In this document: piece by piece, positions 31,878-33,088 of the stretch
Position numbering within the stretch: the first letter of the stretch is position 1
Layout of the letters: every line of letters begins with the position of its first letter
From: Bacillota bacterium
Lineage (GTDB): Bacteria; Bacillota; Limnochordia; DTU087
Length of the DNA stretch: 64,000 nucleotides
Assembly: GCA_012798695.1 (NCBI GenBank)
Contig: JAAZMR010000070.1
Span: 1 to 64,000, forward strand
Direction of reading: 5' to 3'
Translations under genes and position numbers: made by a program
Notes under the pieces: generated by a model
Told to the model about the DNA's origin: nothing
Databases searched by the model: none
What the model saw: the letters and a program-made list of their open reading frames with translations, nothing else

Positions 31878-31906
31878 TTGTTTTCTTTGATTGGGCAAGA
31901 TATAAT
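31878..31906 (+). promoter_or_regulatory. SigA-type promoter of the structured RNA / zinc-ribbon unit
   Basis: TTGTTT (31878-31883), a 17-base spacer and a perfect TATAAT (31901-31906). The expected transcription start is near 31913, which is just where the long closing helix of the downstream RNA element begins. Confidence 0.65.
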
Positions 31907-31914
31907 TACATTGA

Positions 31915-32069
31915 TAGTGTGGGCCCTCGCGGTCGATGTGCCGCGCATCATATCTGCTACGGCAGCGAGACCAAGCCCAAAGGCCACGTCTTGATCCCCA
32001 GGAGTGTCAGCTAGACAAGACACGTCCCCGGCGGGGTGGAGGGAATGAGGCAAAGGCAGGCCCGCGCTG
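31915..32069 (+). ncRNA. Candidate structured RNA (three-way junction), family not recognised
   Basis: Bases 31915-31925 (TAGTGTGGGCC) pair with 32059-32069 (GGCCCGCGCTG) to give an 11-bp closing helix with three G-U pairs. Inside, CTCGC/GCGAG (31926-31930 and 31965-31969) closes an arm with a GATGTG/CGCATC hairpin and a CTGC-UACG-GCAG hairpin, the latter capped by a stable UNCG-type tetraloop. A second arm pairs CCAC with GTGG and GTCTTG with CAAGAC (31984-31993 with 32016-32039). The element starts at a predicted transcription start and lies 47 bases before a zinc-ribbon gene. It could be a leader or a stand-alone RNA. It did not match remembered 6S, SRP, RNase P or riboswitch consensus patterns. 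Confidence 0.5.
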
Positions 32070-32115
32070 GGTTACTGAGATGAGTGACTACCGACTAAAG
32101 AAGGGGATCAGATTA

Positions 32116-32409
32116 ATGGGTGCCTTTGTTGACAAGGTTTTGGTCTGCCGTGATTGCGGTTTGGAGTTTACGTTTACCGCTGGGGAACAAGCGTTTTACG
32201 AGGAAAAAGGGTTTACGAATGAACCGACCCGGTGCCCTGAATGTCGCCGGAATCGGAAACAGCAGCGGAGCGGCTCTCCTCGCTCACGTCAAAGAGAGAT
32301 GTTCAAAGCCATTTGTGCTGATTGTGGAGTAGAGACTGAAGTGCCGTTCAAACCGCAGCTAGATAGGCCCGTTTACTGCCGAGATTGCTTTGCCAGGCAT
32401 CGAGCCTAG
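32116..32409 (+). CDS. Small zinc-ribbon protein, 97 residues
   Basis: Cytosolic protein with two zinc-ribbon-like halves. The first is VCRDCGLEFTFTAGEQAFYEEKGF...RCPECRR (about residues 11-42). The second is AICADCGVETEVPFKPQLDRPVYCRDCFARHR (about 66-97). This is a widespread pattern of 'probable zinc-binding' proteins, joined here by a basic linker rich in R, Q and S. A nucleic-acid role is plausible but not shown. AGGGG lies 9 bases before ATG. The frame is open upstream to 31936, but that part has no protein character and coincides with the structured RNA, so the short form was chosen. Confidence 0.85.
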   Translation: MGAFVDKVLVCRDCGLEFTFTAGEQAFYEEKGFTNEPTRCPECRRNRKQQRSGSPRSRQREMFKAICADCGVETEVPFKPQLDRPVYCRDCFARHRA

Positions 32410-32667: not shown

Positions 32668-32697
32668 TTGACAGGCTGAAGCTGTGTGTGATACCAT
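32668..32697 (+). promoter_or_regulatory. Probable SigA-type promoter of cspA
   Basis: TTGACA (32668-32673), an 18-base spacer and TACCAT (32692-32697). Transcription from about 32704 would give a leader of about 127 bases, similar to the long leaders of other csp mRNAs. Confidence 0.55.
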
Positions 32698-32713
32698 TAG
32701 TTCGAAAGTTGGA

Positions 32714-32801
32714 AACTCTTAGGCGTTGCTGCTACCGGGCAACATCGGGCCCTTATCCTAGTCCCCTTGTTCTTGGCCTCGCTTGCTTCACCTTAAGAGT
32801 T
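32714..32801 (+). promoter_or_regulatory. Long-range helix in the cspA leader
   Basis: AACTCTTA (32714-32721) pairs perfectly with TAAGAGTT (32794-32801), and the adjoining GG can pair with CC. The 3' strand ends 12 bases before the AGGAGG site at 32814. Temperature-dependent melting or refolding of such a helix could affect ribosome access; this is inference from geometry. Confidence 0.4.
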
Positions 32802-32830
32802 GGAGAAATCTTTAGGAGGAATGCGTAGTA

Positions 32831-33028
32831 ATGCTAGGCAGAGTTAAGTGGTTTAACGCGGAGAAGGGGTACGGCTTCATTGAAAGAGAAGACGGCGGGG
32901 ACGTATTTGTTCACTTTTCCGCTATCCAGGAGCAGGGCTTCAAGTCCTTGGATGAGGGGCAGGAAGTCGAGTTTGATATCGTAGAAGGCGAGAGGGGCCC
33001 ACAGGCCGCTAATGTCGTCAAAGTGTGA
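32831..33028 (+). CDS. cspA: Cold-shock protein, CspA family
   Basis: A 65-residue single-domain RNA/ssDNA chaperone with the cold-shock fold. [32 protein letters not shown] contains RNP1 (KGYGFIER) and RNP2 (VFVHF) with their aromatic residues intact. Length is exactly normal. AGGAGG lies 11 bases upstream; another ATG one base after the AGGAGGA stretch is out of frame and closes after eight codons. It has its own promoter and terminator, so it is an independent unit. Confidence 0.95.
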
Positions 33029-33055: not shown

Positions 33056-33088
33056 GACTCCGTGGAACTAAGTTCCACGGAGTCTTTT
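33056..33088 (+). terminator. Rho-independent terminator of cspA
   Basis: GACTCCGTGGAAC and GTTCCACGGAGTC form a perfect 13-bp stem around a TAA loop, followed by TTTT. Confidence 0.95.

Follow-up and report, generated by a model that had tools for sequence, protein, structure and literature searches.

A conserved structured 5' leader carrying a complement of its own ribosome-binding site precedes a two-treble-clef zinc-finger gene in Bacillota

Introduction

In the E. coli cspA mRNA, the fold formed on transcription in the cold exposes the Shine-Dalgarno (SD) sequence, and whether the ribosome-binding site is accessible depends on which of the alternative leader folds has formed (PMC9947658). 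The 5' UTRs of the B. subtilis cspB and cspC genes carry conserved cold-shock boxes, in which suppressor point mutations arise (PMC8307031). The locus described here lies in the middle of a 64,000-nucleotide stretch of DNA (the window), in which positions 31913-32115 are the 5' UTR of a gene for a protein with two treble-clef zinc fingers and constitute a conserved structured RNA. On comparative grounds, this segment is probably a cis-acting leader that governs translation of the zinc-finger gene, whose ribosome-binding site it would either hide or leave free.

Conservation of the leader and its association with one gene

The gene encodes a 97-residue protein that matches PF13451 (E 1.5e-25), PF23477 (E 3.9e-20) and TIGR04272. 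The initial annotation had proposed an RNA at 31915-32069 with its own promoter, and this segment recurs in 9 of 11 genomes of the same bacterial family, exactly those in which a PF13451 gene was found. In all nine gene-carrying genomes (six genera, ten copies) the leader stands upstream of the zinc-finger gene, and these ten homologous loci were aligned as the comparative set. One assembly contributes two similar, distinct copies of the locus (L003 and L010, at G001:C44 and G001:C287); as this assembly has 7% contamination, the two copies may reflect a strain mixture rather than a duplication.

Mean pairwise identity among the ten leaders is 69%, compared with 45% at four-fold sites, 35% in flanking spacers and 74% in the gene. 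The conserved unit does not end at 32069 but reaches the start codon (32116), and the 21 bases before that codon (-21 to -1) reach 87% mean pairwise identity against 35% for flanking spacer. The fold energy of the segment is unremarkable when taken alone (z -1.63, with 15 of 200 shuffles equally stable), and the RNA is therefore established by conservation and covariation rather than by stability. A model of the window-type leader (R1) was scanned against 73 genomes of the class and a sample of 399 genomes of the phylum, and gave no convincing match outside the family in either set. Matches of 20-26 bits outside the family among the 399 genomes were dismissed on inspection; they were largely driven by the AAGGGGATCAG segment.

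The predicted promoter, as first annotated, is present in the sequence and is retained in all ten loci, with TATAAT invariant and the -35 element reading TTGTTT or, in three loci, TTGTGT. A TGA at about +1 is likewise conserved across the aligned loci (promoter TTGTKT-17-TATAAT). The features of the leader are as follows.

31878-31906 (+): promoter TTGTTT-17-TATAAT, found at ten loci; -35 at 31878-31883, -10 at 31901-31906, predicted start at about 31913
31916-31925 (+): 5' strand of the closing helix P1, AGUGUGGGCC, pairing with 32059-32068
31926-31972 (+): P2 arm, lineage-variable, either CUCGC:GCGAG or GGUC:GACC with an inner UGC-YACG-GCA hairpin
31975-31977 (+): 5' strand of P3a, GCC, pairing with GGC at 32055-32057
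31983-31992 (+): 5' strand of P3b, GCC (31983-31985) or GUCUU (31988-31992), pairing with 32047-32051
31991-31999 (+): anti-Shine-Dalgarno (anti-SD) segment, UUGAUCCCC, nine possible pairs with 32103-32111
32004-32023 (+): P4 hairpin, GUGUC...GACAC, strands 32004-32008 and 32019-32023
32026-32036 (+): P5 hairpin, CCCC-GGC-GGGG, strands 32026-32029 and 32033-32036, 97.5% paired and mostly invariant
32047-32057 (+): conserved GAGGCAAAGGC, the 3' strands of P3b and P3a, near-invariant in ten sequences
32059-32068 (+): 3' strand of P1, GGCCCGCGCU, partner of 31916-31925
32100-32115 (+): ribosome-binding segment GAAGGGGAUCAGAUUA, target of the anti-SD segment, with GAAGGGGATCAG identical in all ten sequences
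32116-32409 (+): zinc-finger gene that the leader would regulate, 97 residues, two treble-clef zinc fingers, ATG at 32116

Architecture of the folded domain

Covariation in related genomes, which the initial annotation had itself named as a test of its proposal, was found: P1, P3 and P4 all carry compensatory changes. Across P1, P3a, P3b, P4 and P5, with the SD:anti-SD helix included, standard pairs occupy 98.8% of alignment cells, a figure that falls to 29-47% when partners are slid by 1-3 columns. Four pairs are changed on both sides (two in P1, one in P3a, one in P4), and a fifth such pair belongs to GUYUU:GRGGC, the alternative form of P3b. The closing helix, first predicted as 11 bp, is recovered by folding in that full form (31915-31925 with 32059-32069), and comparison supports its inner 10 bp with 98% of cells paired and the two double-change pairs. 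P3a is paired in 100% of cells; one sequence carries AU in place of GC, a double change, and another carries a GU. For P3b, GUYUU:GRGGC is paired in 100% of cells and has one pair changed on both sides from CG to UA, and the other option, GCC:GGC, is 97% paired. P4 is again 100% paired, and two sequences have UA for CG, a double change, at one of its pairs. Several unpaired bases (GAC.AA, AAUG and AAAGG) are conserved in the ten sequences beyond what the helices need.

The two inner arms that had been singled out in the sequence call for correction. The C(UACG)G tetraloop exists in the window; six relatives have C(CACG)G, and in three genomes (the g6 clade) the whole P2 arm is replaced by CUAGC:GCUAG. 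Because the arm was rebuilt in these three genomes, the P2 pairing given above is tentative. The CCAC-GTCTTG arm can likewise be read in the sequence, but if paired with CAAGAC it belongs to this genome only, since it depends on a CTAGACAAG insertion absent elsewhere.

An internal complement of the ribosome-binding site

A further feature, absent from the initial annotation, is a segment within the leader that is complementary to the ribosome-binding site. The junction segment UUGAUCCCC (31991-31999) is perfectly complementary to GGGGAUCAG (32103-32111) in the ribosome-binding region; each of the ten sequences can form every one of the nine pairs, and both segments are essentially invariant. 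With both strands near-invariant, this helix shows zero double changes in the window family. Its duplex energy beats that of shuffled leaders (p 0.013), and a helix of the GAUCCCC:GGGGAUC type appears in the minimum-energy folds of eight of the ten full leaders. The cost of opening the SD exceeds the shuffled-leader mean in all ten, the gain being modest for single sequences. At 37 C, the SD-blocked ensemble is computed to be favoured by about 5.6 kcal/mol. The blocked (OFF) state is predicted throughout 10 to 70 C, and in this thermodynamic model the gap between the OFF and open (ON) states hardly changes between 10 and 50 C. A simple RNA thermometer acting by melting is unsupported by a predicted fold that barely depends on temperature.

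Leaders of the same gene family elsewhere in Bacillota

The upstream regions of relatives of the gene at 80 loci were compared. Although these regions do not look like kin of the window leader, many of them include complements of their own ribosome-binding sites, such as CCUUCUCAA with UUGAGGAGG, UCUCCUUUUUGG with CCAGAAGGGAGA, and CACUUCUUC with GAAGGAGUG. Among 55 non-redundant leaders, a set that includes at least one from the window family, SD complementarity exceeds that of dinucleotide shuffles (Fisher p about 8e-10, mean z -1.0; the p-value is overstated to some extent, as leaders of less than 75% similarity count as independent). Under the same limits and the same treatment, a control set of 59 other genes at these loci gave no excess (mean z -0.06, p 0.40). 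Taken singly, roughly one leader in four is significant, and the short leaders of rumen Selenomonadaceae mostly are not. Lineage-specific leaders of this gene family (zf_Tbcl), each with its own anti-SD segment in different surroundings, were seen in Syntrophomonadaceae and relatives (L058, L070, L081), in Clostridia (L034, L041, L049), and at L072, L074 and L085. Other Bacillota genomes (G456-G461) have between two and six copies of the gene each, and several of these copies have a leader.

The commonest of the other leader types (L024, L048, L066, L076, L079, L088, L089 and L148-L170) is about 125 nt long and follows the pattern GCYCAA ... GGUYUAG ... CCCUUCUCAA ... UUGRGC ... UUUGAGGAGG. 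A model of this type (R2), built from four sequences using sequence only and excluding coding sequence, found 15 places in ten whole genomes, with the gene, or in one case a fragmentary match to it, directly or closely downstream of all. A scan of the 399 phylum genomes gave 24 hits, one per genome, and each hit lies immediately in front of a PF13451-type gene. RNAalifold, run on 16 and on 39 aligned leaders with no structure given, returned the SD:anti-SD pairing as the only helix, with two double-change pairs. A putative closing helix recurs at a fixed position of this type (GCCCAA:UUGGGC, GCUCAA:UUGAGC, GCUCAUG:UGUGGGC) and is suggestive only; among the sequences covered by unaided stem finding, this helix was non-significant for most when taken singly.

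R2 gave no match to the window leader, so that homology of the two types is not supported by model search. The commoner type resembles the window leader in serving the same gene family, in its putative promoter-proximal closing helix and internal anti-SD segment, and in a ribosome-binding site located 3' of the helix. It differs in having no detectable sequence homology and in its length, about 125 nt compared with about 203. The two leader types thus have gene, layout and principle in common.

Genes around the locus

The neighbourhood of the zinc-finger gene includes csp, hpf and secA. In the window family and in L046 the zinc-finger gene is followed by csp and hpf, and most other lineages have no adjacent csp. 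The csp gene (32831-33028) has a strongly conserved leader of its own within the family (window 32668-32830), with a promoter TTGACA-18-TACCAT and a closing helix formed by AACTCTTA (32714-32721) and TAAGAGTT (32794-32801); this leader gave zero matches to Rfam. Just 3' of csp, at 33056-33084, lies a strong 13-bp terminator-like hairpin followed by TTTTGCATTT. Because this hairpin directly follows csp, the gene probably ends its transcription unit ahead of hpf. The raiA RNA, considered in view of the nearby hpf, was set aside when Rfam gave no match.

A proposed switch and its alternatives

The comparisons establish a conserved RNA with covarying helices and an invariant complementarity, and show that complementarity of this kind recurs before the same gene family across Bacillota. 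Two features of SD-sequestering leaders are present: a conserved segment complementary to the ribosome-binding site (ten of ten sequences, with a family-wide excess over shuffles and control genes) and an evolutionarily supported alternative or compatible fold (compensatory changes in P1, P3 and P4). In the mechanism that we propose, transcription would start near 31913, and the 5' part would fold into a domain closed by P1, placing UUGAUCCCC in the junction that P3 encloses, next to the P4 and P5 hairpins. The emerging GGGGAUCAG would pair with UUGAUCCCC over nine base pairs, which would break P1 and P3 or join them as a pseudoknot and block initiation (OFF). Were the P1-closed domain to hold, or the pairing to be prevented, the ribosome-binding site would be free (ON). 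We infer that the SD:anti-SD pairing forms in cells and represses translation. As to the input, our favoured guess, held tentatively, is that the choice is made during co-transcriptional folding and depends on cold or on RNA-chaperone status. Such a link is plausible given the nearby csp, hpf and secA genes and the second conserved leader before csp.

That the conservation reflects an upstream peptide or an N-terminal extension of the zinc-finger protein is extremely improbable. An open frame, described from the outset as lacking protein character, does span the segment in the window genome, but most relatives have in-frame stops. Translation in the gene's frame upstream of ATG 32116 meets these stops, one of them a few codons upstream, and length changes among relatives are not divisible by three; the coding reading is rejected on account of the stops. 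A stand-alone small RNA, one of two options raised in the initial annotation, is very improbable. Its promoter does lie directly at the 5' end, but no terminator occurs between 32069 and the gene, the ribosome-binding segment belongs to the conserved unit, and in the 73 class genomes the element never occurs apart from the gene at meaningful scores. Its placement solely and directly before the zinc-finger gene argues for the other option, a leader regulator.

The remaining alternatives keep the SD:anti-SD pairing and differ in what would govern it. The leader could be protein-controlled, bound either by the zinc-finger gene's own product or by the cold-shock protein encoded next to it, with a shift of the SD:anti-SD balance as the result (autogenous or chaperone control), which is possible though not probable. 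The two genes that follow, csp and hpf, in the window family and L046 suit this idea, as do the service of the leader to a single small gene whose product is probably nucleic-acid-binding and the presence of such leaders on paralogues; against it, csp is non-adjacent in most other lineages. A translational riboswitch for a metabolite or metal, in which P1-P5 would form an aptamer and ligand binding would control the pairing of UUGAUCCCC to the ribosome-binding site, is rather unlikely. The many conserved unpaired bases beyond helix needs are only suggestive of an aptamer, the layout is compatible with a pseudoknot, and a metal ligand is conceivable for a gene whose product has zinc fingers. 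The cores of riboswitches tend to be preserved, however, and other lineages retain the SD:anti-SD principle without the window core, as the lack of an R2 match to the window indicates; moreover, the regulated gene is neither a transporter nor an enzyme.

Comparison with known systems

The initial annotation recognized no known RNA class, and a search of the whole window against Rfam 15 agrees: there was no gathering hit, and around the segment only chance-level matches (E 0.9 and 6.1). The other zf_Tbcl leader type gave zero matches to Rfam 15 at strict and loose thresholds. A literature search on the zf_Tbcl family or on such a motif found nothing relevant, and the recent structured-RNA surveys that were compared, a set that excludes the large 224-motif survey, make no mention of zinc-finger or cold-shock genes. 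At least two RNA families missing from Rfam are thereby added. A gene family without a known function, with up to six copies per genome, is preceded in one lineage after another by leaders that could mask its ribosome-binding site, which makes zf_Tbcl regulation, and via the signal its role, directly testable. More broadly, zf_Tbcl leaders could quite possibly be new, Bacillota-wide bistable RNA switches whose principle is kept while the sequence is replaced by lineage, and zf_Tbcl a widespread and tightly controlled regulator; such switches would possibly sense a new ligand, a protein or cold.

Like the cspA-type leaders, the window leader is a long structured 5' UTR, and csp is the next gene downstream of the window zinc-finger gene. 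Unlike them, it precedes a zinc-finger gene rather than csp, has no sequence or Rfam match, and shows little temperature dependence in its folding model. With the SD-sequestering translational riboswitches it shares a compact multi-helix domain, an anti-SD segment and a ribosome-binding site 3' of the closing helix; it differs in regulating, as proposed, a small zinc-finger protein, in having no known ligand and in a core that changes between lineages. The kind of device is already known; both RNA families, like their association with zf_Tbcl, appear to be new.
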